A DNA stretch of 53,469 bases, from the NCBI GenBank assembly GCA_903879705.1, contig CAIRMO010000113.1, positions 1 to 53,469 of the forward strand. The letters are read 5' to 3'. Of this stretch, positions 3,122 through 34,423 are shown piece after piece; within the stretch, counting starts at the first letter, position 1; every line of letters begins with the position of its first letter. Origin of the DNA: an uncultured Candidatus Competibacteraceae bacterium (GTDB taxonomy: Bacteria; Pseudomonadota; Gammaproteobacteria; Competibacterales; Competibacteraceae). The notes under the pieces are model-generated. The model did not search any database, had not been told where the DNA came from, and worked only from the letters and a program-made list of their open reading frames with translations. A program made the translations under genes and the position numbers.

Positions 3122-4342
3122 TTATCCCCGGCACTCGATCTTTAACACAAAATCGCAGGCTTCGGCGGCAATGTCCGTAGCGGCACGAGTGTTTCCCGGC
3201 AAGCGGCTCTGGTATTCGATGCCCACCGCTTCCAGAAAGCCCCGCGCCAGCATTCCCTTGATGGCAAAGTTGACGTTCTGTGGTACATCGCCGGTCATCT
3301 CATGCACCCGGACCGCGTTGAGCTTGGAACTGACCACGCCCACCACCGCGCCATCGCCGTCCAGCAACGGCCCGCCGCTGTTGCCGGCCTGAGTCGGAGC
3401 GGTAAATTGCAGGGCGCGAGTGTCATCGCCGGGGCCAATGAGCGAACTCACATTGCCGGTCGTCACTTGCGGCCCGGAACCGAGCAGCCCGCCCAGCGGA
3501 TAGCCCACCACGATCACCGTCTCGCCCAGCCGCGCCTGTGGTCCGTCGCGGAAGCGGGCCATGCCGGGCGGCGGCGGATCGGCCCGCAACAGCGCCAAAT
3601 CGTTGGTGGGATCAGCGAACACCGGTTCCAATCGGCAACGATGGCGGGGCGACCGGGCCAGAATTTCATTGGCACCGTCAATGACATGATGGTTGGTCAG
3701 AATGTAGCCGTCGGGATGAACGCAGAATCCGGTACCGCTGAATGAACCCTTGCCGGCGGATCGATCCGCCTCGCGCCGCCCGTTCGGTCCAGTCAGCGCC
3801 GGAGTTTTTGGGAGCGGTTCTGGCAGGTGTAGCCCAAAATGGGCAGCCAGCGCCGGCAGTCCGGCGGAGAAGCCTTGACCTACTGCCCGGAATTTCCATT
3901 GCCCCTGATGGCGGTACAGTTCGGCCATGATCAGGGCGGTTTCCCCCCGACTGGCCGGCGGCAACGAAAACAGCAATGGCAATTTGCCGGACGGATCGGC
4001 CAGCCAGGCCCGAACTGCGCTGAACACGCCAAAGGTCGTAGCCGGCGCGAAACCCGGCTTGACGGTCAGCACCACCGCAATACGGGCGATCACCTCCGGA
4101 ACAGCGTCCAGGTCGATCCGCAACTCGCCGGGAAACCCGGTAAAAGTGACTGAACCATCGCGGGAGCGCGGCTGCTCGGCGCTGATCAGATCGTCAGCGT
4201 CCCGAACCCGCCCGGCGCTATTCAGCAAGGCAGCGCCGAGTTGGGTTTTAGCGGCGAATTCATCGCTCGGTTCGCCACTGACGCCCACCGCGATCCGCCC
4301 GCCGCCTAGCGGGTGATTCTGTCCCGGCTGGAGTTCTTGCAT
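3122..4342 (-). CDS. TerD-like domain fused to trypsin-like (HtrA-type) serine protease
   Basis: The 406-residue protein has two halves. Residues 1-175 form a TerD-like domain; the diagnostic end reads ETALIMAELYRHQGQWKFRA followed by VGQGFSAGLPALAAHFGLHL, close to the TerD domains at 30.7-34.4 kb. After a Pro/Arg-rich linker (175-200), residues 203-370 are a chymotrypsin-fold protease with a full triad: His219 in LTNHHV, Asp248 in TNDLALL and Ser322 in AGNSGGP. There is no signal peptide, membrane segment or PDZ domain, so it is probably cytoplasmic. Its opening LQPGQN matches the start of the TerA-type protein at 32539. It sits just downstream of bioD on the same strand, 38 bases away. TerD domains bind calcium in known members; a regulated intracellular protease is inferred. 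The substrate is unknown. Confidence 0.85.
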   Translation of the reverse strand: MQELQPGQNHPLGGGRIAVGVSGEPSDEFAAKTQLGAALLNSAGRVRDADDLISAEQPRSRDGSVTFTGFPGELRIDLDAVPEVIARIAVVLTVKPGFAPATTFGVFSAVRAWLADPSGKLPLLFSLPPASRGETALIMAELYRHQGQWKFRAVGQGFSAGLPALAAHFGLHLPEPLPKTPALTGPNGRREADRSAGKGSFSGTGFCVHPDGYILTNHHVIDGANEILARSPRHRCRLEPVFADPTNDLALLRADPPPPGMARFRDGPQARLGETVIVVGYPLGGLLGSGPQVTTGNVSSLIGPGDDTRALQFTAPTQAGNSGGPLLDGDGAVVGVVSSKLNAVRVHEMTGDVPQNVNFAIKGMLARGFLEAVGIEYQSRLPGNTRAATDIAAEACDFVLKIECRG

Positions 4343-4380: not shown

Positions 4381-5070
4381 TCAAGCATAGGCCGGGCCGG
4401 GGCTAAAATCCGCCAACCGGGACAAATCCAGCGCTACCGCAGCATCCTCAGGATTTAAGTCATAAGGCGTCACGCCCAGCAAGGGCGCATTCAGCCGGCG
4501 TTGCAAAGTCGCCAAATTCGCCTCGAACCGGGCCATCGCCGGATCAATTTGATTGGCGACCCAACCGGCCAGATACAATCCGCGCCGTTCAATGGCCTCA
4601 GCAGTCAGCAAGGCATGATTCAGGCAGCCCAACCGCATTCCAACCACCAACACCACCGGCAACGCTAAAGCCACTGCCAAATCTGCCGTGTCCTGCTGAT
4701 CATCGAGTGGAACCCGGAATCCACCGACCCCCTCTACCCACACTACGTCCGCCAAGGTTTGCAATTGCGCCAACGCCTGCTGAATCAGTGCAATTACAAT
4801 CGGTCGTCCGGCTTCAGCCGCAGCCAGATGCGGGGCAATCGGCGAGTCATAAAGATAGGGATTCACCAGGGCGACCGGCGGTTGAATGGAACTGGCTGCC
4901 AATAATCGCGTGACGTCCTCATTACCACCATCGGCTTCAATCCCTGCCGCAATCGGCTTCATTCCAACCGCACTCAAACCCAATTGCCGGGTGGCATACA
5001 GCAAAGCGCAGGCCACCTGGGTTTTACCCACCCCGGTATCCGTGCCGACAATAAAAAAGGTGCGGTTCAT
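4381..5070 (-). CDS. bioD: ATP-dependent dethiobiotin synthetase
   Basis: Closes the ureido ring of dethiobiotin from 7,8-diaminopelargonate, CO2 and ATP, the next-to-last step of biotin synthesis. The 229-residue protein carries the BioD P-loop FIVGTDTGVGKTQVACALL at residues 6-24, the GMKPIAAG segment that binds substrate, and the EGVGGFRVPL motif near residue 115. It is the last gene of the biotin operon; its ATG overlaps the bioC stop by 4 bases, implying translational coupling. Length is normal for the family (about 225). Confidence 0.96.
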   Translation of the reverse strand: MNRTFFIVGTDTGVGKTQVACALLYATRQLGLSAVGMKPIAAGIEADGGNEDVTRLLAASSIQPPVALVNPYLYDSPIAPHLAAAEAGRPIVIALIQQALAQLQTLADVVWVEGVGGFRVPLDDQQDTADLAVALALPVVLVVGMRLGCLNHALLTAEAIERRGLYLAGWVANQIDPAMARFEANLATLQRRLNAPLLGVTPYDLNPEDAAVALDLSRLADFSPGPAYA

Positions 5071-5906
5071 GGCCGAATCGCGATCAGCCAGACTGCGTCA
5101 TAGGTGAGGGGCAAACCGGCGGGTTCCCGCAATGTCTCATAACGAGCGGTCAATGCGTGCCAAGTGGAACGGCTAAAAGGTGTGGGCCGGCGCTGTTCCA
5201 CTTCGCGGGCACCGACCGCTTTCACACTGCGAAGCAAAGTTCGCAGGTCAGGAAAATAGCGCCGCACTGGTTGCCGGTCCCAGCGCCACACCTCACAGTC
5301 GCTGGCCTGGCACGCGGTCAACAGGTGTTCCGGGGCAGGAATAGTCAGCACATGGCGGTAATCGTCCAAGGTGGCGAAGGCGTGGCGCAATTCAGGAAAG
5401 TTGTTCGCGCCCAAGGTTGCTACTGCCAGCGCTCCGCCAGGTTTTAGCACCCGCCGCGCCTCAGCCAGACAGCGGTGCGGGTCGTTCCATTGCCAGGCCA
5501 GACTCGACCAGTACAGTTCGAAGCACTGATCGGCTACCGGCAAATGCTCAATGTCGGCACAAATCAGCAAGGCCGCGTCCAATTGCGCGCGGGCGGCGAT
5601 CAACATCCGGGGCGCAAAATCAATCATGGTCATTTCAGCGTCCGGCCATTGGAGTTGAAGCTGCTGAGCGCCATAACCGGTGCCACCGCCGGCATCAAGA
5701 ATCGCCTTAGGATTGAGATTGCCGCTGATTTGAATCAGGTGGGCGGCCAGTCGGTCGGACACTTCGCGCTGGACTTCAGCAGCCGTGTCATAAGTGGTCG
5801 CTACCTGATTGAAGGCTTGGCGAATCCGCTGTTTAGCGGGCAGGATGGGGGGAGAATTAAGTATTGGCTGCAAACAGGATGCCTCATTTTTTGAGATAGA
5901 TTTCAA
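5067..5906 (-). CDS. bioC: Malonyl-ACP O-methyltransferase
   Basis: An SAM-dependent methyltransferase that masks malonyl-ACP as its methyl ester so that fatty-acid enzymes can build the pimeloyl chain. Motif I reads ILDAGGGTGYGAQQL near residue 68, preceded by the BioC-type RQAFNQVATTYDTAAEVQ opening. The only start giving the whole frame is a TTG at 5906, three bases after the stop of the methyltransferase gene upstream. This adds about 24 residues before the usual BioC start; an internal TTG at 5873 would remove 11 of them. The odd start suggests that the original translation signal was lost when the R-M cassette entered. The 3' end overlaps bioD by 4 bases. Confidence 0.93.
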   Translation of the reverse strand: MKSISKNEASCLQPILNSPPILPAKQRIRQAFNQVATTYDTAAEVQREVSDRLAAHLIQISGNLNPKAILDAGGGTGYGAQQLQLQWPDAEMTMIDFAPRMLIAARAQLDAALLICADIEHLPVADQCFELYWSSLAWQWNDPHRCLAEARRVLKPGGALAVATLGANNFPELRHAFATLDDYRHVLTIPAPEHLLTACQASDCEVWRWDRQPVRRYFPDLRTLLRSVKAVGAREVEQRRPTPFSRSTWHALTARYETLREPAGLPLTYDAVWLIAIRP

Positions 5907-5909
5907 CCA

Positions 5910-7145
5910 TTACCATTGAGCAACAACATCAAACTCAAGCAAATTTTTATTTGAATTACGCTTGCGAATTGCCCGACACTCTATGTTATGAAATCCTAAT
6001 TCCATCAGCATTTCCGCATACAACTGCTCTGTCGAAATCAGAGTCCCATAAAAAGCAGAATTCCCGACGATATAATGTATTTCTGCGCCACTAGCAAGTA
6101 CTGGGGTCAGGCATTGAAAGTGATTCCATATGTCATCAAAATATTTTGCTATATAATTAGCCAGAATAACGCCATTCTTGTTATCCGTATGGACAATTTT
6201 ATCAAGGGCACGAGCCAGTTGATGGCTCTTAAAATAATTTTCCGGGCGTTCCCACCCTATTAAACGACTGGTCGCAATGCCCCAAGTGCCGCCGATAGCT
6301 GTCCAATCCAACTCGCCTGCATCTCGGCCATTTAGCAAAAATCCAAGCCAATACATGTAAGGACGAAGTTCGCGAATATAGGACATCCGGTTCACATAAG
6401 GTGGGGAAGTAATAACCAGATCAAATGGTCCTTCAACTACTTTTGCTGGATTCCTTGCATCGCCAAGGATTACATCGCTTTGCCCTGCTGGATTTTCGCT
6501 AGCGCTATTCAACACAAAACGGACGTTTTCAGAAAAAACACCCGCTCTATCGGTATTAAAATTGATAGCAATCTGGTCATCATTTTTGAACGACATCGAT
6601 TGATGATTAAAAGCAGCATTCGATAACTCAATCAAAGATCGGCAAAATGCAATTAGCAGCAAGGTATGTGCTGTGGAGCATTCTCTGGTCACTTCTGAAA
6701 TGGCAGGAAAAAGCAACTGAAGGAAATGCAGAGATTCTGGATTCCACCATCGTTCTATGTTATGAATCAGCGGAGCGGGCATGGGGTGGATACGCTGGCG
6801 CTTTACTAAATCGAGTGCCGAAGCAGAAGCATGATGCGCTGCAACGATCTCCCCCGGAGAGTAGTGTGCAATTTTTGCCTGTGTTAGCCACACGAGAAAA
6901 GGATTGATTTCTGTTGTGATACCTTCATGCCTGTGATAAGCAGCGATCAGCGCGGTCGTTCCAGTGCCGCAAAATGGATCAAAAATGCGCCGGGTCTGGC
7001 TGTAATCGGCGATCAATTCTTCCACGATCTTGATCGAGTAGGCAGGAGTGAGACGTAACCAGCCGTGTCGCCCGGTTCTTGCGTTGAACTTATAGGTGTA
7101 ATCCGACCGCTGGCGGAGTTGTTCACGCACGGAAACAACTGCCAT
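5910..7145 (-). CDS. Type II DNA methyltransferase (SPPY class)
   Basis: Modification half of a type II restriction-modification pair. The 411-residue protein has the SAM-binding motif DPFCGTGTT at residues 56-64 and the catalytic motif TSPPY at 246-250. SPPY is usual in N4-cytosine enzymes, but N6-adenine cannot be excluded. About 90 residues between 140 and 230 are variable and could hold target recognition. The start at 7145 overlaps the endonuclease stop by one base, and the stop at 5910 lies three bases before bioC. The DNA is visibly poorer in GC than bioC and bioF on either side, a sign of transfer. Target sequence cannot be read from the gene. Confidence 0.88.
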   Translation of the reverse strand: MAVVSVREQLRQRSDYTYKFNARTGRHGWLRLTPAYSIKIVEELIADYSQTRRIFDPFCGTGTTALIAAYHRHEGITTEINPFLVWLTQAKIAHYSPGEIVAAHHASASALDLVKRQRIHPMPAPLIHNIERWWNPESLHFLQLLFPAISEVTRECSTAHTLLLIAFCRSLIELSNAAFNHQSMSFKNDDQIAINFNTDRAGVFSENVRFVLNSASENPAGQSDVILGDARNPAKVVEGPFDLVITSPPYVNRMSYIRELRPYMYWLGFLLNGRDAGELDWTAIGGTWGIATSRLIGWERPENYFKSHQLARALDKIVHTDNKNGVILANYIAKYFDDIWNHFQCLTPVLASGAEIHYIVGNSAFYGTLISTEQLYAEMLMELGFHNIECRAIRKRNSNKNLLEFDVVAQW

Positions 7146-7960
7146 TACTTTGACTCCGGTGTTAGTAATGCTTCAAGTACATTAGCTATTTCTATCCGAA
7201 GGGTTTTACGGTTTCGATTAAAAAATGCAGCAAGGTCATATCCAATAACCTCACGCATAAAATCATAGGTAGAAATCAGTGGATCATTTGCGCCCTCAAT
7301 GCCGGTAATGACCGCCCATTTTTCAGTCCGGTAGCGCAGCAAAACATCGCTATCGATCTGGGCAGACAAGATGGTAGCGCAAGGGAAATAAGCTTTGGTG
7401 TACGCTGTTGCCGCATTGGCAATATCAGCATTCTGACGCTTCGAATCCTTACTCTTATAACCTTGTCGAACTTCAAAGATGGTGCCGTTTAGCATTGAAA
7501 ATACACGCGGGTCTACACCGATAGATTCGGCAGAATCTTTCATCCATGCGTGGAAACGGATACGTTTTACCTCATCGGCAATCTTATCAAGTGGAACACG
7601 GCCATCGAGATACAGAGTCCGTGTTTTTCCGGTTGAGAGTGGAATGGTGTAAGACCACGTTACATCAGCTTCGGACAAGCCAAGAGCGTCTTTGATAACG
7701 GTTCGGAAGAGCTTTTCGCAGCCAATACCAATCTGTCTATAAATGCTGGTCATTCCACCTGCCGCCTTATGGGCAGCGTACATCATCGGATGGTCGAGGC
7801 CAAACCAGTTATAGAATGGGTCACTTTGATAAAGCGTTTGGAATTGGGCTAGAGTTAATCCATCACCCTTTGAGCCTTGACCAAATTTTGGTTTGTATTT
7901 GGCGCAGACCCTGATCGGTTCCAAGACGAGATCAAGGTATGCAGCGTCGTTTGGATTCAA
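7145..7960 (-). CDS. Type II restriction endonuclease, partner of adjacent methyltransferase
   Basis: The 271-residue protein is read as the endonuclease because of its place directly before the methyltransferase and its central motif. Residues 159-180 contain GTIFEVRQGYKSKDSKRQNA; Glu163 and Lys169, with Asp119 or Asp150 as possible partners, could form a PD-(D/E)xK-like site. The family looks like the TdeIII (GGNCC) group from memory, but this is uncertain. The start is a TTG at 7960 whose TG forms part of the bioF stop (TTGA overlap); the first internal ATG is 58 codons in and would cut the conserved N-terminus. Composition is AT-rich compared with bioF, matching the methyltransferase and indicating one transferred cassette. 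Confidence 0.77.
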   Translation of the reverse strand: MNPNDAAYLDLVLEPIRVCAKYKPKFGQGSKGDGLTLAQFQTLYQSDPFYNWFGLDHPMMYAAHKAAGGMTSIYRQIGIGCEKLFRTVIKDALGLSEADVTWSYTIPLSTGKTRTLYLDGRVPLDKIADEVKRIRFHAWMKDSAESIGVDPRVFSMLNGTIFEVRQGYKSKDSKRQNADIANAATAYTKAYFPCATILSAQIDSDVLLRYRTEKWAVITGIEGANDPLISTYDFMREVIGYDLAAFFNRNRKTLRIEIANVLEALLTPESK

Positions 7961-9235: not shown

Positions 9236-12046
9236 TCAAGGCATCACCCGAAACACTTTCATCACTTCATCGCCGAGATGATTGATGACTTTGACGGCAA
9301 TCCGCCCGGACACCGGTTTAATGAAAGGGCGGGACGTATCGCTATTCAGGGTGGCCCAAGCCTCTTCGTTGATTTCGGCTTTGAGCGTAGTTTTCAGGGC
9401 TTGATAAGGATTATTAGCGCCGAGAAAGTAGGCGTGGCGGACAAAGAAACTTTCTTCGTTATAGTCGGTGTCGATGAACCAGCAGGCAATGCCGTCGGGG
9501 CCGTCACTGCGAATTTCGCCAGTTTGCGGATGGAACACATCAATGCCGTTAATTTTGACTTGAAGGTGGCCGTCGGCAGCATTGATGATGGTGATGTCGG
9601 GTTCGCCGAAGATGACAAACAGATTGCCCTTGCCGGTATTTTTAAGGTCGTCGGCCATGTGTAAATCGGCGTTCATCCGGGCTTTGAGAACCGGAATGCG
9701 GCCCAGTTTGGCAAAATCGGTGGAGCGGGCGTCGTAGTTGAAGGCACAGGCAATGAGGACATCGAAATCGGCATCACCGGCTTCACGCGCAGCAGCGACT
9801 AAATCAGGGCGGGAGACGGTGCCAAATTCCGGGCCGATAAAAATGGCAGCGCGTTTTTCAATCGGGACTCCCTCGCTCTTTTCGGGAGAGGGATTTTCTA
9901 AATACCGTCCTTCAGCGCAAATCAATTCACCCGGCCAGGCTATTAATGCGGTAAAAGTAATCCGGTCTTCCTTGTGTGCCTGTTGGACGCCTGCCATTTT
10001 CAGATTATCCAGAATCATCTGGGCAAAATCCGGCTTTTCGTGATAGCCGTCGCGGGATTCTGCAATGCGGTCTACTAACTCATCGTTTTCATCGACGCCT
10101 AATACTCGATGCGGTGAAAGGCTTTCCACGGTAAACGGCCCGGCCACTCGCACCGTCTTTTTGTTTTCATAAGGTTTATCGTAGAGATATTCGTAGTCAG
10201 CCTTAGCGGCAATCGAGGCGTCAATCTCATGTTGTCGGGCGATGCGCTGTTGCCACCATTGCGCGTGTAATTTTTTAGCGGCATCCGGCCAGTGTGGATC
10301 AGCTTCATGCGGGATTTGCCATTCTTCAAATGATTTGCTTAACAACGAGTTAATTTGCTGGCGCAACGGCTCCATTATTTTCTGAAACTTCTCCCAAATT
10401 ACGTCGATTTCAGCGTTATTGGCAATGGATTTTAGAGTGATATGCGGGACGCGCTCATAAACAAAGCCTTGGCGAATGTCGTTACGGGTGGGCTGACTGG
10501 ATGGCCCGGTACGAGTGATTTCGGCTTCCTTGAGTTGACCGGCGCGGCTATCAGCCAGCAGGTAATAGGGATAGCGAGCGCCCATAATCCGGGCACGGGC
10601 CAAGGCTAATGCCACGCGGGAGGTGTCAATCGTGATCCAGCGCCGGCCCCATTGTTCGGCGACATAAGCCGTGGTGCCAGAACCACAAGTGGGATCGAGA
10701 ACCAGATCGCCGGGGTCGGTGGACATGAGGATGCAGCGTTCGACAGATCGGGCGACAGTCTGTACTACATATGACCGTTCTTCAGTTTGGGAACCACTAC
10801 CCGTATCAGCCCAAATATTCGTCAACGGAGATACCGGCGTATCATTAAAAACTCGCTTATAACGGATCGTTCCGTTGACATCACAAAGGCGATTTCCTCT
10901 CCCTAAACGCCGTAAACCATCAAGTGAAGTAGACCAATATCGTTTTTTTGGATCAAATTTTGCCCCATGCAATTCAAATGGCTCACGAGTATATTCATGC
11001 GATGATGTAAGATCACCAAGTCCAAATAGAATGCCTATTTTTTCAGATTCTTTTGGATATTCTTTTTCGATTTTAGTCAATCGACGCCATTCAAAAAAGT
11101 TCGTTTCGATACAGCCATAAGAATCCTCAGAAACATCTAAATACTCTTTTGATTTAAAAGGTCTCCGAAATTTACACATCGATTTATTTTTGGCATAAAC
11201 TATAATTGTATCGAATATGGATGGCAAAAAATCAGCCGTTCGATTGCTCGTTGTTCTAAATTTAATTTCAATGACTTGATTAACATCCCCAAACACCTCA
11301 TCCATCACCGCCCGAACCCGATGCACATTTTCATCGCCAATCTGGACAAAAATCGACCCAGAATCCGTCAATAACTCCTGCGCCACGGTCAACCGATCCC
11401 GCAAATAAGTCAGATAAGAATGAATCCCGTCCCGCCAGGTATCCCGAAAGGCTTTAACCTGTTCCGGCTCGCGGGTAATATGATCAACATTGCCGTCCTT
11501 GACATCGCGGCTGGTGGTTGACCATTGAAAATTGGAGTTAAATTTAATTCCATAAGGCGGATCGAGGTAAATACATTGCACCTTGCCGCGCAATCCTTCG
11601 CGCTCGGCCAATGACGCCATAACGTGCAGACTGTCGCCCAAAATCATCCGGTTTTGCCACTTGCCGTCATGTTGATAAAATTCGGTTTTATCCACGCCTT
11701 CGGGAATGCCGTTAAAATCCGCAAACAGATCAATCTGCTCATCATTAGCCTTGGTGTCTGCCGCACTTTGCCGCAACAGATCATCAATCAACACCTTGGG
11801 ATGAATCTTCTCCTGGATATACGGCGGCGGTGCATGAACCACCAAATCCGACCAATCCTGCAAATCCTTCCCGCGCCAAACCAGTTGCGGATCGAGATCA
11901 CGATTACGGCGCTCATACGCCACCTGCACCGGATTCTGTTCCTCTTTCCGCATCACTGACTGATATTCCGCCGTCGGGATATTCTTGCGGGTGGCATCTT
12001 CGTGAGTCAGGGTTTCAATGGTTTTGGTCGTGGGTTTCTTGGGCAT
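9236..12046 (-). CDS. mod: Type III-like DNA methyltransferase (Mod), site-specific m6A class
   Basis: Modification and specificity subunit working with the helicase-nuclease encoded upstream. The 936-residue protein has the catalytic DPPY motif at residues 162-165 (YLDPPYGIKFNSNFQW) and the SAM motif DPTCGSGTT at 451-459. That order, IV before I, is the beta class typical of N6-adenine Mod subunits. Residues from about 255 to 410 form the variable target-recognition region. A C-terminal extension of about 450 residues is longer than in classical Mod proteins (about 650 total) and fits the subgroup that pairs with about 1000-residue Res proteins. The DNA of the recognition region (about 10850-11290) is AT-rich against GC-rich flanks. 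Confidence 0.9.
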   Translation of the reverse strand: MPKKPTTKTIETLTHEDATRKNIPTAEYQSVMRKEEQNPVQVAYERRNRDLDPQLVWRGKDLQDWSDLVVHAPPPYIQEKIHPKVLIDDLLRQSAADTKANDEQIDLFADFNGIPEGVDKTEFYQHDGKWQNRMILGDSLHVMASLAEREGLRGKVQCIYLDPPYGIKFNSNFQWSTTSRDVKDGNVDHITREPEQVKAFRDTWRDGIHSYLTYLRDRLTVAQELLTDSGSIFVQIGDENVHRVRAVMDEVFGDVNQVIEIKFRTTSNRTADFLPSIFDTIIVYAKNKSMCKFRRPFKSKEYLDVSEDSYGCIETNFFEWRRLTKIEKEYPKESEKIGILFGLGDLTSSHEYTREPFELHGAKFDPKKRYWSTSLDGLRRLGRGNRLCDVNGTIRYKRVFNDTPVSPLTNIWADTGSGSQTEERSYVVQTVARSVERCILMSTDPGDLVLDPTCGSGTTAYVAEQWGRRWITIDTSRVALALARARIMGARYPYYLLADSRAGQLKEAEITRTGPSSQPTRNDIRQGFVYERVPHITLKSIANNAEIDVIWEKFQKIMEPLRQQINSLLSKSFEEWQIPHEADPHWPDAAKKLHAQWWQQRIARQHEIDASIAAKADYEYLYDKPYENKKTVRVAGPFTVESLSPHRVLGVDENDELVDRIAESRDGYHEKPDFAQMILDNLKMAGVQQAHKEDRITFTALIAWPGELICAEGRYLENPSPEKSEGVPIEKRAAIFIGPEFGTVSRPDLVAAAREAGDADFDVLIACAFNYDARSTDFAKLGRIPVLKARMNADLHMADDLKNTGKGNLFVIFGEPDITIINAADGHLQVKINGIDVFHPQTGEIRSDGPDGIACWFIDTDYNEESFFVRHAYFLGANNPYQALKTTLKAEINEEAWATLNSDTSRPFIKPVSGRIAVKVINHLGDEVMKVFRVMP

Positions 12047-12106
12047 GTTAATTCCGATTGCGTAGCAGGTGGTTTATTCTTTGAATGGATTAACGATTAA
12101 CAATGG

Positions 12107-12328
12107 TTAGCGTTCATTCATTTCATCCCGTGTCGGTTTATGCCCAATGATGACCTTGCCCGGTAATTTTTCGATGGTATTATCATAATTTTTCATCCTT
12201 TCATTACGCCCCACATAATCAGCAAGCCACCGACAAAATAGCTCATTGAGCGTCGTATTTTCAGCCCTCGCTATTTCCTCGGCAGCTTCAATCAGTTCTT
12301 CATCAAGATAAAGAGTAATGCTTTTCAT
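12107..12328 (-). CDS. Ribbon-helix-helix antitoxin-like protein
   Basis: A 73-residue protein opening MKSITLYLDEELIEAAEEIA, the beta strand plus first helix expected of a ribbon-helix-helix DNA-binding fold, continuing ENTTLNELFCRWLADYVGR. Proteins of this type usually act as antitoxins or small repressors. An AAGGAG ribosome site lies eight bases before the ATG at 12328, which decides the start over a longer frame beginning at 12385. No toxin gene follows before mod, so it is either an orphan antitoxin or a local regulator of the R-M genes. It lies between hicA and mod. Confidence 0.7.
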   Translation of the reverse strand: MKSITLYLDEELIEAAEEIARAENTTLNELFCRWLADYVGRNERMKNYDNTIEKLPGKVIIGHKPTRDEMNER

Positions 12329-12403
12329 GGTAAAGGCTCCTTGATTGTGGATTATCAACCAGTCATGCGTCGTCATTCTTTGCATAGCTAATTGATAAAT
12401 TTG

Positions 12404-12616
12404 CTATGCAAAGCGGATGCCTGCCTGTTTTTCAATAGCTTTTAATGTACCCATAGGAATTACATCATTGCTGTGAATTGGAACAATTGCAGTGCGTCTA
12501 ATCTGTGGATTAAATAGCTTGAGATGAGAACCAGTTTGACTGGCTTCCAGAAAACCAGCCATTTTGAGTTGCTGAATCACTTCCTTTGCTGTCAAACGCG
12601 GCGTTTTAGGAGGCAT
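12404..12616 (-). CDS. hicA: HicA-family mRNA interferase toxin
   Basis: A 70-residue toxin of the dsRNA-binding-like fold. HicA proteins cleave mRNA and are neutralised by HicB. The sequence shows the family pattern: LTAKEVIQQLKMAGF, then GSHLKLF with the catalytic histidine, then IPIHSND-like residues (VPIHSNDVIPMGTLKAIEKQAG). It lies 14 bases after the hicB stop and has an AAGGA ribosome site. The pair would help stabilise the island that carries it, which is inference. Confidence 0.85.
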   Translation of the reverse strand: MPPKTPRLTAKEVIQQLKMAGFLEASQTGSHLKLFNPQIRRTAIVPIHSNDVIPMGTLKAIEKQAGIRFA

Positions 12617-12630
12617 GGATAATTCCTTTT

Positions 12631-12840
12631 TTACAAGGCCATTTCAACCACTTCTCTCGAATCAGCCAGTTCCAACAGGTAATCTGGAATAGGTTCCAGC
12701 ATTAACGTAATCGCGTCTTTCAAATTCTCAATCGCTACCTCCCGACTTTCGCCAAAAGAAGACACGAAATTCAGTTCTGGGCAGGTTGCCGAGTAGGCAT
12801 TGACTTCATCATCCCACTCTAAAATAGCTCTGATTAACAT
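12631..12840 (-). CDS. hicB: HicB-family antitoxin (short form)
   Basis: A 69-residue partial RNase H-like HicB domain: it starts with a beta strand (LIRAILEWDDEVNAYSATCP), then the typical FGESREVAIENLKDAI helix. It ends in a charged tail with no separate DNA-binding domain, so autoregulation would need help, perhaps from the ribbon-helix-helix protein downstream. hicB comes before hicA here, the less common order. GGAGA precedes the ATG. It follows res by 16 bases. Confidence 0.82.
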   Translation of the reverse strand: MLIRAILEWDDEVNAYSATCPELNFVSSFGESREVAIENLKDAITLMLEPIPDYLLELADSREVVEMAL

Positions 12841-12856
12841 GATTGATCTCCTCTTT

Positions 12857-15800
12857 TCACTTCTGACACTGATCGATTAACTGCTCGATACACCGATTAA
12901 AATCCACCTCAATCTCATACACCGCCGTAAATTCCGCAAACGCCCAGCGGCCATAATTCCCCAGGTTATTGACGCCCGGCACCCAATAGGTCTCCATCGT
13001 CGCCTTTTTCTCTTTGGCATCCTCACGCCGATAACCCTTGATTTCCACGATTAAATGCAGCAATCCACCCGCTCCATCATTGACCACGACGATAAAATCC
13101 GGGCGATAATGCCGTAATTGCGAACCATAACGATAAGGCACCTCCAGCCCCAAATTATGATTCTTCACATAAGCCTGAACCCGGGGATGCGCTTCAACCA
13201 CCCGGCAAAATTCCGCCTCCCAATCGCTATCCAGAATCACCCAGTTCAAATGACAACGCCGGGAATCGGTCTGCCAGCGACTGGTTTTAGTGGTGTTAAA
13301 ATTGACATGGGCCGTGGAACCGGTCGGATTATAAGCATCCAGCATGACCTTAATGGGCCGCTCACCGACCAGTGAACGGGTAATGGCGGCGGTAATCCGT
13401 TCACTCGCCATATCCGCCAATTCCTGATAAAGCAACTGCGCCGGATAGGTCCCGCCCTTGCATACCAGACAGCGATCCAGCCATTGCCCGGCGATCTGTT
13501 TCAACTGGCCGAACAAATGCAATTTCGGCTCTTCACCCGGATCGCGCCAGTGGGTATACAACAAGCGGCGGGTCAAGTGAAACAGCAGCGTTGACCGTCG
13601 CACTTCAGCCAGATGATCCAGCTTCAAATCCACGCTTTCGCCAATAATCCCGGCATTTTGGGTAATCGACGGCCCCACCAGTTCCGGGGTCAACTCTAAT
13701 ATCGAGTCCGCATTAAACTCAGCGGTTAAGCGCTCCTCCGGCAATTCCACCCGATAACCGGCCACTCGCGGAAAGCGGATTGCCAGCGGATCGCGTTCCG
13801 GGCGCATGGCTTTAACCTGAATCACGGCTTGCGGCGGTTGCGGCGGGGCAATCACCGGCTTGGCGGTAAAATCAAACGGAATGCCCAGCACATCAGCATA
13901 TTTCACATTAAATAGACCCACCTCATTTAGATCATAAGACTGGCGGCGCAAGGATCGACCGATGACTTGTTCACAGAGTAATTGTGTGCCAAACGCCCGC
14001 ACCCCCAGAACATGAGTGACGGTATTTACATCCCAACCCTCGGTCAGCATCGACACCGACACCACGCAACGAATCGAATCGCCCAATCGGCCCGGCTTAC
14101 CCACCGTATTCATCACTTCCCGCAACAAATCCTGATCACTGAGGTTTTCCGCCTGTCGCCGGTCGCCGGTGCGCTGAATGATTTCCCGGCGAAACCGGTC
14201 AATCTCATCCATCGCCACTTGCCGAAACTGCTCATCCAGCGCCTCGCCGGATTCCAGTTGCTCGCTGTCAATCAGCAAAGTGCGCGGGCGACCCAGCGGA
14301 TTACTGGATTCATCGAAATTGCGAAACAGCGGCAACCGGCCATTTTCCAGCGTGGTTGAACCGTCTTCATGTTCCCGGCGAAACCCGGCAATAAAGTCAT
14401 AGACCAGTTTCGAGGTCGAGGTGTTATTGCACACCACGATAAAACAGGGCGGGGCAGGCATTCCCTGGTCTTGCCATAACCGGTAAGTCTTTTCATAATG
14501 CCCATACAAGGCTTCCAGCGCAGTTTGCAATTCCACCGGCAAACTGAGCGGATCGAGGGTCTTGGCTTTACCCCGGCCTTTTTTTGGCATCCGACTGCGA
14601 ATGTGTTCCCACAAATTGCGGAATTTCGGCATTTCGCCGCCGGGGATATTATCGGCGACCGGCACTCGCGGCAGCTTGACAATTCCGCATTCAATCGCAT
14701 CCATCAATGAAAAATCGCTCATTGTCCACGGAAATAGCGTGCCTTCGGCATAACCCGATCCGCGCAGAAAAAAGGGTGTCGCTGACAAGTCAAGCACCCG
14801 ACTGACGCCCATGTTGCGCTTCACCGCTTCCAGCCCGGCAATCCACAACCGAGCTGCCTCATTGTTCTTTTCCGCTTCCCGGCGTTCATCGCTCGCCAAC
14901 TCCCGTTCATTCTCGGCATCGGGTTTTTCCCGATAGCAATGATGGGCCTCATCATTCAACACCAGAATCTGTTTCAGCCCCATCAACTCGGGCATCACCC
15001 GCTGTAGCATTTGCCCTTCGCTTTCCAGCGTCTTTAGTGCCGGGCCGCGTCCTTGCAATAACGAACGCCCGCCTTTGGACAATTCCAGCCGATCCCGGCG
15101 TTTAAACGCATGGTAATTAGTAATCACGATCTTGGCCCGTTCCAGATCACGCAACCAATCACCGGGAACCAGCTCCCGGCTGGCGTAATAACTGTCCGGG
15201 TCATTGGGTTGCAGCACCCGCAACCGATCCCGAATGGTCAAACCGGGCGCAACCACCAGAAAACCCCGGCTAAACCGCGTACCTTGCGGGTGGCGCACCG
15301 CGTTAATCGTCTGCCAGGCAATCAGCATCGCCATGACCGTCGTTTTACCGGCTCCGGTCGCCAGTTTTAACGCCAGCCGCAGTAATTCCGGGTTGGCCGC
15401 CTGATTAGAGTCAGTGAGATGTTGCAAAAAACCCTGACCCGCTTTTCCGGCGTGAGGTGCCACTTCGGTCAGCCAGATCACTGTTTCCACCGCCTCGACC
15501 TGACAGAAAAAGGGCCGAATGCTATTAAACGAATGCTGTCGCCAATGCTGCAATAATCGGGCGGTTTCTGGCGTGACCTGCCATTGCGCCGGATTGGGTA
15601 ATTGCCGCCATTGATCCACCCGCTGGCGTACTGCGTTAATGATCGCGGTATGGTCATATTGCTGTTGCTGGCTGGACAGTCCCAGTCCTTCATTAAAGAT
15701 CAGCGCATCCTGCTCCGCACCCTGGCGCTGGCGGGGTTTGGGAATCGGAGTAATGAATTCAGCCCGGCGGCGGTTTTCAATAATCCGTTGAGTAGGCTGA

Positions 15801-15883
15801 CCACTGGCATCCAGTTCCCAGTGCCGGATCGGACGTTCATAAGGCGAGTTGAGAATCGGGCGTTCAAAGAAAGGCTGATTCAT
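12857..15883 (-). CDS. res: Type III-like restriction enzyme Res subunit (DEAH helicase-nuclease)
   Basis: The 1008-residue protein combines a superfamily-2 motor with a nuclease. Walker A reads LATGAGKTTVMAML near residue 190, the Walker B box is LNDEAHH (DEAH type), and helicase motif VI is QVIGRSLRR. At the C-terminus the nuclease motif is RPDF at 927-930 with EIKG at 947-950, a PD-(D/E)xK pattern. Length and layout match the roughly 1000-residue Res family that pairs with long Mod proteins. It is encoded first, with hicBA and a small RHH gene between it and mod. It begins 90 bases after bioA on the same strand. All key motifs are intact, so the system may be active. Confidence 0.92.
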   Translation of the reverse strand: MNQPFFERPILNSPYERPIRHWELDASGQPTQRIIENRRRAEFITPIPKPRQRQGAEQDALIFNEGLGLSSQQQQYDHTAIINAVRQRVDQWRQLPNPAQWQVTPETARLLQHWRQHSFNSIRPFFCQVEAVETVIWLTEVAPHAGKAGQGFLQHLTDSNQAANPELLRLALKLATGAGKTTVMAMLIAWQTINAVRHPQGTRFSRGFLVVAPGLTIRDRLRVLQPNDPDSYYASRELVPGDWLRDLERAKIVITNYHAFKRRDRLELSKGGRSLLQGRGPALKTLESEGQMLQRVMPELMGLKQILVLNDEAHHCYREKPDAENERELASDERREAEKNNEAARLWIAGLEAVKRNMGVSRVLDLSATPFFLRGSGYAEGTLFPWTMSDFSLMDAIECGIVKLPRVPVADNIPGGEMPKFRNLWEHIRSRMPKKGRGKAKTLDPLSLPVELQTALEALYGHYEKTYRLWQDQGMPAPPCFIVVCNNTSTSKLVYDFIAGFRREHEDGSTTLENGRLPLFRNFDESSNPLGRPRTLLIDSEQLESGEALDEQFRQVAMDEIDRFRREIIQRTGDRRQAENLSDQDLLREVMNTVGKPGRLGDSIRCVVSVSMLTEGWDVNTVTHVLGVRAFGTQLLCEQVIGRSLRRQSYDLNEVGLFNVKYADVLGIPFDFTAKPVIAPPQPPQAVIQVKAMRPERDPLAIRFPRVAGYRVELPEERLTAEFNADSILELTPELVGPSITQNAGIIGESVDLKLDHLAEVRRSTLLFHLTRRLLYTHWRDPGEEPKLHLFGQLKQIAGQWLDRCLVCKGGTYPAQLLYQELADMASERITAAITRSLVGERPIKVMLDAYNPTGSTAHVNFNTTKTSRWQTDSRRCHLNWVILDSDWEAEFCRVVEAHPRVQAYVKNHNLGLEVPYRYGSQLRHYRPDFIVVVNDGAGGLLHLIVEIKGYRREDAKEKKATMETYWVPGVNNLGNYGRWAFAEFTAVYEIEVDFNRCIEQLIDQCQK

Positions 15884-30751: not shown

Positions 30752-31330
30752 TCAACCGAGACTAACGCCAAAATCGCGAGCAACCGCCGTCAGTCCGCCC
30801 GCGTAGCCCTGCCCCATCGCCTTGAACTTCCATTCATCGTTATTGCGATAGAGTTCGCCGAAGATCATCGCGGTTTCGGTCGAGGCCTCCTCGGACAGGT
30901 CGTAGCGGGCAATTTCCTGATCGCCGTCGGCGTTCAACGCCCGGATGTAAGCGTTCTGCACCTGACCGAAGTTCTGTTTGCGGGCCTCGGCATCGTGGAT
31001 CGTCACGACAAAGGACACCCTAGCGGCGTTCGGGGTCATCCGTCCGAGTTCAATCTCAATCGCCTCATCGTCGCCCACACCTTCGCCGGTGCGGTTGTCG
31101 CCTTGGTGCCGAACCGCGCCCGACGGGTCCTGGGCATTGTTGTAGAACACGAAATGCTGATCGCTCAGCACTTTGCCGCCAGCATCCAGCACAAACGCCG
31201 AGGCATCCAAATCAAAGGTGCTGCCATCGGTCTTGCGCAAGTCCCAGCCCAAGCCGAACCGCGCTTTTTTGATTCCCGGCGCCTGCTTGCTCAGCGAGAC
31301 GTTTTGCCCTTTCTGCAAAGAAACCGCCAT
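30752..31330 (-). CDS. terD: TerD-family protein
   Basis: A 192-residue, single-domain TerD protein, the exact family length. It shows [21 protein letters not shown], the acidic calcium-binding region ([12 protein letters not shown]) and [20 protein letters not shown] followed by MGQGYAGGL. TerD proteins bind calcium and are cytoplasmic. The ATG at 31330 follows AGGAGG at a good distance; a longer frame to 31438 is not conserved. Last gene of the ter operon; whether it is TerD or TerE by orthology cannot be settled here. Confidence 0.93.
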
Positions 31331-31359
31331 AGTGAATCCTCCTCTTGAAAAGGAATGGG

Positions 31360-31935
31360 TTAGAGATTCATCCCGTATTGCCGGCACATGGCTGCCAGTC
31401 CACCGGCGTAGCCCTGCCCGACCGCGGTAAAGCGCCATTCGCCGCTGTGCCGGTAAAGTTCGCCGAAGATCATCGCGGTTTCGGTCGAGGCGTCCTCGAC
31501 CAGATCGTAGCGGGCCACTGCTACATTGGTTTCGGCATTGACCAGCCGGATGTAGGCGTTGTTGACCTGACCGAAATTTTGCTTGCGGGTCTCGGCGTCA
31601 TGGATGGTGACGATGAAGGCAATCTTCTGCACGTCCGCCGGCACCCGATCCAGATCGATCATGATCGTTTCGTCATCGCCTTCGCCGGCCCCGGTCAAGT
31701 TGTCGCCGGTGTGCTGCACCGAGCCGCAGACTGATTTCAACTGGTTATAAAAGATGAAGTCAGCTTCCGAGCGTACCTTGCCGTCAGCATTCAGCATGAA
31801 GGCCGAAGCGTCCAGATCAAAATCCACGCCATCGGTCGCACGGGCGTCCCAGCCCAGTCCAATCAGAACTTTCTTGAGGCCGGGCGCTTCCTTGTCCAGC
31901 GACAGCCGGCCACCTTTGTTGAGAGAAATAGCCAA
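31360..31935 (-). CDS. terD: TerD-family protein (second copy)
   Basis: A 191-residue TerD protein, about two-thirds identical by eye to its neighbour: [59 protein letters not shown] at 31935 is chosen as start because it gives the family opening (M)[18 protein letters not shown] and GCGAGGA lies before it; an in-frame TTG at 31959 would add eight unconserved residues. The two neighbouring copies probably arose by duplication and correspond to terD and terE of plasmid operons. Confidence 0.91.
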
Positions 31936-32041
31936 GAGGTTGGTCCTCGCTTGGTTCAATGCGGGTTTAGGGAATTACAGTCTGATACGGGTTGAAAATG
32001 TCCCTCCCGCAATAGCGAGAGGGGTTTGACGATGCCGCCGC

Positions 32042-32497
32042 TCAGACCAGATCGAATTCTTTAGGATTCAGCCCTAGTTCCGCGCAGATCTTGCGGACAA
32101 TGGCCTTCTCCTGATCGTCGAAATTGCCATCGGCGGCCCCAATCGCGCAACAAACCCGCACCATCAGCTTTGCCTCGGCCTCATCGCCCTTGATCTTGGC
32201 AACCGCCTGCAAGGCGCTCGCCTGGCCGATCTGGTGATCAAACTCGAATTGCCGGGCGTACTTGTCAAAAATGGTGATCACCTCTTCGGTACTGAACACC
32301 GACAGCACCTCGGAATTTCGCAGAAAGCCCATCATTTTCTGCTTCTCCTCCGGTTTGGCCACGCCGTCGGCATGAGCGACCAGCACGCAGCCAGCCACTA
32401 CCGACTCCAGAAAACCTTTGTTGCGAATCTTGGTGACTTCGCCCTTCAGGCTGGTGGAGACTTCGTCAAACCGCTGTTTTAACCATTCGAGAGCCAT
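32042..32497 (-). CDS. terB: Tellurite resistance protein TerB
   Basis: A 151-residue all-helical protein of the TerB/TerB-like fold. It contains KGFLESVVAGCVLVAHADGV, an acidic metal-binding helix pair, and repeats the pattern near the end as CCAIGAADGNFDDQEKAIVR. TerB is thought to work at the inner face of the membrane with TerC in classic ter systems. ATG at 32497 is preceded by AGGAG eight bases upstream. It lies between terA and the two terD copies. Confidence 0.93.
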   Translation of the reverse strand: MALEWLKQRFDEVSTSLKGEVTKIRNKGFLESVVAGCVLVAHADGVAKPEEKQKMMGFLRNSEVLSVFSTEEVITIFDKYARQFEFDHQIGQASALQAVAKIKGDEAEAKLMVRVCCAIGAADGNFDDQEKAIVRKICAELGLNPKEFDLV

Positions 32498-32538
32498 GTT
32501 ATTCACTCCTGATTTAGGGACGGGGAAAGGAAACGGGA

Positions 32539-33807
32539 CTAATCCTTGGAACCGGCTACCCAGCGCAAGCCAAATCCATAAGCCTGATCGAGGAAGCGGT
32601 GATCCAGGAAATATTCGACCAGTTTGGTAACTTTAATGTTGCCGCCCTGATTCTCCAACATCGCCAGGGCGCACATCCGCTGGTCGTTACGGTGGCTGTC
32701 GATCCGGATTTCCAGGATCGGCTGGCCGGGGGTCTGGATGGTCACTACGGCGTCGGTTTCGGCCCAATTGGGCGCTCCTTCGTAAATCAGCGCGAATACC
32801 ACGAGGCGATCCACCTGATCCCACTGGTGACCATTGATCCGCATGAATTCGCCGGCGGCGCTGGCCCCGGAGCGGTCATCGCCCATGAGCTGAATATAGG
32901 GTGGTTGTTGCAGACTGCCAAAATTGTTGCCCAGCGCCTGCACCGCACCGACCTGGCCATCCCGCAGCTTGAACAGACAACCCAGGTCAAGATCAACCTT
33001 GCGGCTGGTCAGCCGGCCAAAGAAACCTTTGCCGCCGCCGCCCTGGTTCCAGTTCAGATTGATCAGCAGTTCCTCGAAACCCTGACCTTTTTTCTCCAGC
33101 GAAATGCTGCTGCCTTTCTTGTCCAGCGTCACTTTTTCCAACCGAATCGGCTTGGGCGACGCGAACGGGGGAACGGCAGACGGAGTAGCCGGAGTAGCCG
33201 GAGTAGCGGGCCGGGGTAGGGCGGGTGGAGATATTGAAGCCGGTGGCGCAACCGGGGCAGCATCGGGATCTTCATCCACGTCTACGCCGTACTGCCGGGC
33301 CAAGGGTGCCAGCCCACCGACAAAGCCTTGCCCCAGGGCGCGGAACTTCCATTCCCCGTTGCGCCGGTACAGCTCACCGACGATCAGCGCGGTTTCCGCC
33401 ATCATTTTGGTCGCCAGCGGGAATACCGCCAGGCTGGCCTTGCTCTGGGCATCGCTGATTTCGGCCCGTACCTGGCTCAATTGCCCAAAGGACTGGCCGC
33501 GCCGTCGGCCCTGATCAAGGGTCAGGGCAATAGCGATTTTTTCGATCACCGCCGGCAAGCGGGCGAAGTGAACAGTGAACCGGCGACCGTCGCTCGCTCG
33601 CTCAAGGCCGCCGCCGGCCAGGGTGAGCTGGTTGTAAAAGATAAAATCGCCATCGCTGCGCACCTTGCCCTCCGCCGTCAGCGCAAAGGCATTGGCGTCA
33701 ATGATCAACGGGGTGCTGGCCGGCTCCCAGCTCAGCGCGAGGTCAACCGCCGCCGGGGCCGGACTGTGTTTGGAAATCGAGAAATTCTGGCCGGGTTGCA
33801 GATCCAT
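32539..33807 (-). CDS. terA: TerA-type protein with N-terminal TerD domain
   Basis: A 422-residue protein. Residues 1-175 form a TerD-like domain (LIIDANAFALTAEGKVRSDGDF, then ETALIVGELYRRNGEWKFRA and LGQGFVGGLAPLARQYGV). Residues 185-230 are a Pro/Ala/Thr linker (PATPATPATPSAVPP). Residues 235-422 form the second, TerA-type domain (KGSSISLEKKGQGFEELLIN, RKVDLDLGCLF, IQLMGDDRSG, and the ending KLVEYFLDHRFLDQAYGFGL). The DNA for the linker contains short direct repeats (GGAGTAGCC). ATG at 33807 follows GAGGAA. It lies between terZ and terB. Its LQPGQNFS start resembles that of the TerD-protease at 4342. Confidence 0.9.
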   Translation of the reverse strand: MDLQPGQNFSISKHSPAPAAVDLALSWEPASTPLIIDANAFALTAEGKVRSDGDFIFYNQLTLAGGGLERASDGRRFTVHFARLPAVIEKIAIALTLDQGRRRGQSFGQLSQVRAEISDAQSKASLAVFPLATKMMAETALIVGELYRRNGEWKFRALGQGFVGGLAPLARQYGVDVDEDPDAAPVAPPASISPPALPRPATPATPATPSAVPPFASPKPIRLEKVTLDKKGSSISLEKKGQGFEELLINLNWNQGGGGKGFFGRLTSRKVDLDLGCLFKLRDGQVGAVQALGNNFGSLQQPPYIQLMGDDRSGASAAGEFMRINGHQWDQVDRLVVFALIYEGAPNWAETDAVVTIQTPGQPILEIRIDSHRNDQRMCALAMLENQGGNIKVTKLVEYFLDHRFLDQAYGFGLRWVAGSKD

Positions 33808-33823
33808 GACCGCTTCCTCGCGG

Positions 33824-34423
33824 CTACAGATAGGGCTTGAGCGCCGGGAGCAGATCGTGGAAAGTGCGGCCCGCGGCGTGTTCACCGATCGCCTGCATCT
33901 TCCATTCATTATCGTGGCGGTACAGCTTGCTCATGATCAGCCCGGTGTAGTCGCCGCCTTCCAGCGAAAGATCGAACCGGGCGATTTCACCGCCGGCCTC
34001 GTCCACCAACCGGCAGAAGGCGTTGGGAATCCCGGTAAAACTTTCGCCAGAGAAACTGTTGACGGTGAAAATCAGGGTTTTCGCCACTGCGGGAATCCGA
34101 CCCAGTTCAAGGCTGATCCGCTCATTTTCCGCCCCGCTTTCGCCGCCGCCGGACCGGTCATCGCCGCTATGCTGAATGGAACCGCAGTGGCTGGCCAGTT
34201 GCCGGAACCAGACGGTATCGATCAAGGCGCCGGCGGCGTCGAACAGCAGACAGGAGGCGTCCAGATCGACGGCTTTCTGCCGGGAACCAGCCCCAATGCC
34301 GAGAAATCCCTTGGATTGCACCTGTTTCATGCCCCAGCCCAACCCCATGACGACCCGGTTCAGGCCGCGCCCCGCTTCTTTCTCCAGGCTGATGCGCTGT
34401 CCTTTTTGTAGATTGATGGCCAT
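33824..34423 (-). CDS. terZ: TerD-family protein, TerZ-like
   Basis: First gene of the ter operon. The 199-residue product is a TerD fold with the Ter-Z features: GMKQVQSKGFLGIGAGSRQKAVDLDASCLLF, where an insertion before the DLDAS box differs from TerD/E, a GENERISLELG stretch, and a longer C-terminus (FHDLLPALKPYL). An ATG at 34423 follows AGGAAA. The operon promoter must lie in 34424-34690, facing away from the Sel1 gene. Confidence 0.88.
   Translation of the reverse strand: MAINLQKGQRISLEKEAGRGLNRVVMGLGWGMKQVQSKGFLGIGAGSRQKAVDLDASCLLFDAAGALIDTVWFRQLASHCGSIQHSGDDRSGGGESGAENERISLELGRIPAVAKTLIFTVNSFSGESFTGIPNAFCRLVDEAGGEIARFDLSLEGGDYTGLIMSKLYRHDNEWKMQAIGEHAAGRTFHDLLPALKPYL

Follow-up and report, generated by a model that had tools for sequence, protein, structure and literature searches.

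The locus analysed here raises the question of what a TerD domain does when it is joined to a serine protease in one protein. The window, by which we mean the whole stretch of Candidatus Competibacteraceae DNA under analysis (53,469 nucleotides, from genome G000), carries such a fusion gene at 3122-4342, just where the preliminary description had placed it. It is read from the minus strand (4342..3122), starts at an ATG at 4342 and encodes 406 amino acids. The open frame itself counts 411 residues, with about 5 codons ahead of this ATG, and the plus-strand frame over the same coordinates is interrupted by stops. To our knowledge, the true role of the Ter system has long been unclear; the fusion probably belongs to the working parts of this stress system, largely unnoticed so far, and is not a calcium switch. 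The features referred to below are as follows:

3122..4342, minus strand: TerD-protease fusion gene, 406 amino acids, ATG at 4342, stop at 3122-3124
3827..4342, minus strand: TerD domain, residues 1-172, without the acidic DLDAS and GDNxTGxGxGDDE of canonical TerD
3746..3826, minus strand: linker, residues 173-199, fast evolving, model confidence low at 177-198
3125..3745, minus strand: S1/HtrA-type protease domain, residues 200-406, no PDZ
3686..3688, minus strand: codon of catalytic His219, an invariant alignment column
3599..3601, minus strand: codon of catalytic Asp248, an invariant alignment column
3377..3379, minus strand: codon of catalytic Ser322 (GNSGGP), an invariant alignment column
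4381..5906, minus strand: bioD and bioC (presumed names), directly upstream of the fusion and on the same strand
30752..34423, minus strand: ter cluster of the window genome, 26 kb away from the fusion
33824-34423, minus strand: ter cluster gene, TerD-like
32539-33909, minus strand: ter cluster gene, TerA
32042-32506, minus strand: ter cluster gene, TerB, 51% identical to TerB of the alphaproteobacterial locus L032
31360-31959, minus strand: ter cluster gene, TerD
30752-31438, minus strand: ter cluster gene, second TerD

Both halves of the protein are matched by Pfam above the respective cut-offs, so the earlier statement that a TerD domain and a trypsin/HtrA-type protease share one 406-residue protein holds. 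TerD (PF02342) was found at residues 3-169 with 92.4 bits (cut-off 25.3, E 3e-26), and Trypsin_2 (PF13365) at residues 203-336 with 104.6 bits (cut-off 27.6, E 1e-29), the entire profile being spanned. Pfam detected no PDZ domain in the window protein, whose end is formed by the S1 domain. In NCBIfam no specific family scored above its cut-off, and the HtrA/DegP models matched far under their curated cut-offs. The AlphaFold model obtained from a 66-row alignment (pLDDT 84.4, pTM 0.60) consists of two confident domains and a low-confidence linker at residues 177-198; an earlier model from 19 similar rows had reached a pLDDT of 51.6. When folds were compared, the TerD half gave Z 24.5 to 9a6r_B and Z 20.1 to 3ibz, and the protease half resembled DegS without its PDZ domain (Z 22). 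Among solved structures, the protease half is closest in sequence and fold to MucD, DegP and DegS; the VIA-align fold list holds mostly protease-domain matches, and absence from this list excludes no family.

The protease triad that had been reported as intact lies at exactly the residues given, His219, Asp248 and Ser322, in invariant columns, and it is kept in 30/30 aligned fusions from four lineages. Triad loss in homologues, named in the preliminary description as an observation that would count against its reading, was thus not seen. In one of these fusions (L124, on G111:C42 in the gammaproteobacterial family f74) the reading frame is broken soon after the Ser motif. We also assessed selection on the codons of seven Ca. 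Competibacteraceae orthologues. The dN/dS values were 0.07-0.19 for the TerD half, 0.03-0.10 for the protease half and 0.12-0.76 for the linker; both domains are maintained by purifying selection, and the linker is drifting.

A hydrophobic N-terminal stretch was present in 0/30 fusion proteins according to a crude scan that used no signal-peptide predictor, in agreement with the earlier claim that no export signal exists. In this first scan many start codons were allowed for the protease-only proteins discussed below and one for the fusions. A second crude scan extended the same kind of start-codon rule to 23 fusion loci, and a hydrophobic stretch was found at any upstream start in 0/23. Judged from its sequence, the fusion protein is probably cytoplasmic.

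How widely the fusion occurs was assessed in several collections. In the GTDB contig scan the best 80 of 301 relatives were analysed, and both halves were matched in 24 loci. Twenty-two of them (L009-L030), all full-length and with 69-93% identity, are titled Ca. Competibacteraceae, Competibacter, Contendobacter or only Proteobacteria. Since there are 22 such full-length orthologous loci, and since dN/dS in the domains is 0.03-0.19, the fusion is far beyond chance. The others are an alphaproteobacterial fusion (L032, 41-43% identity) and a broken copy (L031) in the low-coverage 'Synechococcaceae' bin SM1_2_3. In L031, bioA-bioF-bioC-bioD adjoin the broken fusion, and this contig looks like Ca. 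Competibacteraceae DNA placed in the wrong bin.

Among Ca. Competibacteraceae genomes the fusion was found in 25/39, intact in 24 and split over two frames in G016. In the window genome the fusion (3.1-4.3 kb) lies outside the ter cluster (30.8-34.4 kb). The upstream genes at 4381..5906 we take to be bioD and bioC, following their Pfam class and the gene order. Of the loci examined, those of same-genus relatives have this neighbourhood too, as does L031, which is probably misbinned. The immediate neighbours vary between Ca. Competibacteraceae genera, so no partner can be read from these neighbourhoods, and the attempt to derive the function from them was abandoned. Two insertions interrupt the window's biotin operon: at 5910-7960, separating bioC from bioF, lie a DNA methylase gene and one of unknown kind, and at 9236-15883, separating bioF from bioA, lie restriction-like genes, presumably mod-like and res-like. 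Loci L009-L011 have mod and res as well.

In broad genome samples the fusion is rare. With the best few candidates per genome scored, full-length fusions were detected in 5/369 gammaproteobacterial genomes; with the best few candidates scored in the same manner, the fusion occurred in 1/289 genomes of the class of G404, this being G404 itself, and in 1/398 genomes of the phylum sample, this being the window genome. The 369-genome gammaproteobacterial sample includes G340, which encodes a divergent fusion of 380 residues, and the divergent fusion was found in 13/63 genomes of family f74. G340 (C42, C57; L134, L112, L125) holds an identical second copy on C42, followed by a truncated PRTase, and C42 also carries genes that, by eye, are sugar-modification-like. 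The N-terminal half of divergent fusions scored above the Pfam TerD cut-off in 6/9 proteins (five plasmid ones and that of L157, an IMG/VR contig), three f74 proteins being just under it (21.4-24.8 vs 25.3 bits), and it matched the canonical TerD/TerA profile with a probability of 99.4% (E 2.4e-21) over 162 columns.

The plasmid search with the divergent fusion matched 293 records, 127 of them over at least 80% of the query length, and the commonest genus was Pseudomonas (136/293). The window protein matched 2686 plasmid records, including 1066 from Klebsiella and 439 from Escherichia. At 80% cover only three records, from Burkholderia and Pseudomonas, were left; this criterion is a weak one, as true fusions on P. 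aeruginosa plasmids covered only 69%. Enterobacterial plasmid ter loci may be devoid of the fusion. A mobile or phage gene was considered and rejected: 50,697 phage records gave no match, and among 64 IMG/VR relatives only L157 is full-length, its fusion sitting in a ter operon. This 65 kb contig has ATP-grasp, PRTase, HAD, StiP, HpcH, HAD, TerZ and TerA genes around the fusion; though filed as viral, it may represent a plasmid or an integrative element instead.

The other 56 of the best 80 relatives were matched mainly in the protease half, and a home-made profile found a TerD domain in 0/56 of them. A hydrophobic N-terminal stretch was seen in 44/56 of these protease-only relatives vs none of the 30 fusions by the crude scan, and many of them appeared, by eye, to be fused to Sel1, peptidoglycan-binding or lipoprotein-like N-termini. 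Since the protease-only relatives are mostly exported, this pattern suggests that the protease domain may have been recruited into the cytoplasm from an exported enzyme. In the careful tree of the protease domain (69 rows), 23 fusions all lie on one side of one branch, supported at 99/98, and in the quick tree (85 rows) the fusion branch received an SH-aLRT of 85. Both trees were built without 7 fusions (the broken L124 and 6 rows that were near-identical or belonged to the same group), without L108 and without 8 protease-only rows; another 16 protease-only rows, long ones or duplicates, were dropped from the careful tree. The grouping fits a single origin of the fusion, as far as unrooted trees can tell, and it depends partly on sampling, both trees warning of long branches meeting.

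The preliminary description had proposed a calcium-gated cytoplasmic protease, in which TerD would bind Ca2+ and thereby switch the protease. Such gating is made conceivable by the TerD fold itself, by the title of structure entry 2kxt, which names calcium-binding properties of TerD, and by the f74 proteins, which retain an acidic 'DL' at the first site. The two canonical TerD proteins of the window carry the acidic segments FDLDASAF and GDNxTGxGxGDDE, which we take to be the holders of the calcium ligands. However, in 24/24 aligned fusions (L031 was left out of this alignment for its broken frame and low-coverage bin) the first segment is replaced, with two acids lost, and the second is deleted; the alignment of 2kxt to the fusion likewise has a gap at the loop. 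The acidic-loop pattern was found in 0/30 fusions, as against 6/6 canonical TerD proteins, and in 0/3 TerA and 1/2 TerD-like (TerZ-type) proteins. The letters DLDA or DLDS do occur in 6/30 fusions, which in the 24-fusion alignment represent a later IDLDAVP strand and not the first site. In the divergent branch the calcium motif is not intact either. The TerD half had also been said to resemble TerA of the window, and this is true by score, TerA being the best match with 80 bits compared to 69 bits for one window TerD, but not by identity (35% for TerA and 36% for that TerD). As the window TerA has the same loop deletion as the fusions, its likeness speaks against calcium gating. With the acidic motif intact in 0/30 fusions, the proposal of a calcium gate is given up here as highly improbable, though Ca2+ might still be bound through acidic residues elsewhere, for instance near 22-29 and 47-53.

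Outside Ca. Competibacteraceae the fusion is encoded either within ter operons or adjacent to them. On plasmid pTTS12 of P. putida S12 (L149), the fusion is RPPX_RS26415, annotated only as 'trypsin-like peptidase domain-containing protein', and the gene order, all on one strand, is ATP-grasp, fusion, PRTase, HAD-type phosphatase, StiP, HpcH aldolase, HAD, TerD-like, TerA, TerB, TerC, TerD and TerD. This order is identical on three further Pseudomonas plasmids, where the gene bears the same annotation. On a replicon of Burkholderia stagnalis, PRTase, HAD, StiP, HpcH, TerZ, TerA, TerB and two TerD genes come after the fusion, while ATP-grasp, the second HAD and TerC were unmatched within 21 kb. 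In f74, a PRTase_2 gene lies at most 1.5 kb from the fusion in 13/13 genomes (split over two frames in G740), and a ter cluster is no more than about 3.2 kb away in 12/13, the exception being G340. Four f74 genomes have a TerD gene of 447-462 residues between the fusion and PRTase_2, and the one tested with Pfam is of the TerF type (TerD-vWA). In the alphaproteobacterium (L032), PRTase_2/TRSP, HAD-like and StiP/PELOTA genes are divergent from the fusion, a DUF1523 membrane protein and TerB, the HAD-like gene having been called by resemblance with no Pfam match. Since the same partner genes recur in such far-apart settings, the link to Ter is firm.

In f74, PRTase_2 (E<1e-30) was present in 13/13 fusion genomes vs 3/50 fusion-free ones, and canonical TerD in 13/13 vs 8/50. 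In Ca. Competibacteraceae the fusion might have been re-used outside Ter, e.g. as the regulator of another pathway, with the Ter link ancestral only. In favour of this, the gene is away from the ter genes and has variable neighbours; PRTase_2 was not found in the window genome (148 contigs) or in G029, though both are rated 100% complete, nor in fusion genome G009; and two genomes (G002 and G028) lack canonical TerD, their TerD matches being weaker ones in long frames (best E about 1e-39), although they do have PRTase_2. Against it, PRTase_2 (E<1e-50) occurs in 22/25 fusion genomes of this family vs 4/14 others, and stand-alone TerD or TerA genes in 23/25 vs 6/14, the latter count omitting a single weak match in G001. 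The four fusion-free genomes with PRTase_2 (G003, G010, G021, G035) are only 58-82% complete, and the Pfam cut-off raises their number to 5/14 by adding G020 at E 5e-19. Fisher tests of fusion against PRTase_2, which ignore phylogeny and genome incompleteness, gave 5e-11 for f74 and 3e-4 for Ca. Competibacteraceae. We thus regard re-use outside Ter as quite unlikely: in this family the fusion is located away from the ter genes, yet it is retained in genomes that mostly keep them.

As for the suggested tie to Ter systems, it stands on the f74 genomes (canonical TerD in 13/13 vs 8/50) and on the ter operons, and it is less strict in Ca. Competibacteraceae, where a canonical TerD match is absent in 4/25 fusion genomes; two of the four (G034 and G038) have TerA and TerD-like genes. 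Scattering of the fusion in genomes without ter genes, which had been named as speaking against the proposal, was not seen, all 13 f74 fusion genomes having canonical TerD. The absence of the fusion from genomes that have no TerD match was dropped as an argument, being circular: the fusion itself contains TerD.

With slightly better than even confidence, we lean towards the view that the fusion serves the Ter system as a soluble serine protease of the cytoplasm, like DegS without its PDZ domain, which would be aimed or switched by a TerD domain free of the calcium motif. Here, the S1 domain would be of the DegS/HtrA type, and the TerA-like TerD would stand in for the PDZ sensor. TerD would recognise a Ter partner or product, either TerA/TerD assemblies or the nucleoside-like compound that has been proposed as the product of the PRTase_2/TRSP-HAD-StiP-lyase-ATP-grasp genes, and this recognition would bring or switch the protease onto a cytosolic target. 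The catalytic activity, the sensing or targeting role of TerD, the ligand and the cut target are all parts that we infer.

The nearest solved relatives of the protease half (MucD, DegP and DegS) and the operon shared with TerA-TerD would also suit a plain quality-control protease. During tellurite stress it would degrade Ter and cytosolic proteins that have become damaged or oxidised, with TerD as an anchor to Ter complexes and no signal switch. However, the fusion has neither a PDZ domain nor a cage-forming part, and we consider this explanation rather unlikely. A DegS-like domain that lacks PDZ would point to regulated cleavage instead of bulk degradation.

The killing arm of a Ter-based response that the preliminary description had also suggested was weighed as well, in the form of cell killing or abortive infection directed against phages. 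Ter loci are tied to phage inhibition by the titles of Whelan 1995 and 1997 and by a proposal in the accessible part of PMC7824862, and the S1 domain is weakly like RT-Protease_XI. PADLOC, however, returned only generic S1 likeness and weak matches, and no defence family. Moreover, the gene is widespread and slowly evolving in Ca. Competibacteraceae, and most abortive systems are not known to be so. No analysis that we ran lent support to the killing arm, and we hold it to be very unlikely.

Within the regulated Ter protease that we prefer, a more specific version may be put forward, though as an improbable one: a nucleoside-like stress signal, made by the PRTase_2/TRSP, HAD, StiP, lyase and ATP-grasp genes, would bind TerD and switch on the DegS-like protease, leading to a specific cytosolic cut. 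A nucleoside-like product was proposed for genes neighbouring ter in the part of PMC7824862 available, and an excerpt of PMC7159879 lists TerD among domains possibly recognising nucleotide derivatives. If this second-messenger reading were true, the fusion would play, within Ter, the part that ligand-gated protease effectors have in other immune signalling systems of bacteria. A conserved protease in the operon offers, moreover, an assayable catalytic output, and knowing its substrate and trigger would make the Ter pathway testable.

Compared with known systems, the fusion shares the fold, the triad and the GNSGGP motif with DegS/HtrA (PF13365, S1), but it has no PDZ domain and, by the crude scan, no signal peptide or anchor, and carries an N-terminal TerD instead. 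Its closest protease-domain relatives among the best 80 of 301 are the exported Sel1-, peptidoglycan-binding- and lipoprotein-type proteases of Pseudomonadota (39-51% identity), which differ from it in lacking TerD (none of 56) and in mostly having the hydrophobic N-terminal stretch. A 2008 paper, which we take to be that of Tripathi and Sowdhamini, had already listed the architecture. Its accessible part (PMC2605481) gives one TerD-Tryp protein, YP_273108.1 of P. syringae, as 'not functionally characterised', so the TerD-trypsin architecture itself is not new. In that protein TerD is N-terminal to the trypsin domain, the same order as in the fusion; it is a single case, and the excerpt mentions no operon context, calcium-motif loss or wider spread. 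The VMAP ternary conflict systems also draw on trypsin-like protease modules and, more rarely, on TerD modules, according to the part of PMC7159879 at hand, but Pfam found no vWA or MoxR ATPase in the fusion and the seven nearest genes of the window. Other TerD fusions exist in the window genome (C126, C148, C38; L005, L006, L008), namely TerD-Virul_Fac (PF10139) and TerD-FGE-sulfatase (PF03781), and the same set holds a TerD protein with a hydrophobic C-terminal stretch, seen by eye, near DUF4384 and caspase-like Peptidase_C14 genes.

Our literature search, as far as it paired ter operons with trypsin-like proteins, returned no paper (the founding survey of Ter, Anantharaman 2012, lay outside it and may mention the protease), and it returned none linking StiP, PRTase, tellurite and ATP-grasp. 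The terZABCDE genes of Pseudomonas plasmids are described in the available portions of PMC8779313 and PMC9537497, the words 'protease' and 'peptidase' being absent from both main texts; an excerpt of PMC9537497 also reports measurements of the tellurite resistance borne by pTTS12 in P. putida S12, a soil strain in laboratory use, and one of PMC8849076 lists terZABCDE and TerD proteins for pPAG5. Ter operons with PRTase_2/TRSP, HAD, StiP/PELOTA, C-C bond lyase and ATP-grasp genes enclose the fusion on Pseudomonas plasmids and in f74, and in the alphaproteobacterium it stands beside part of the PRTase_2-StiP gene set; the window differs from these in that its fusion is located outside the cluster.
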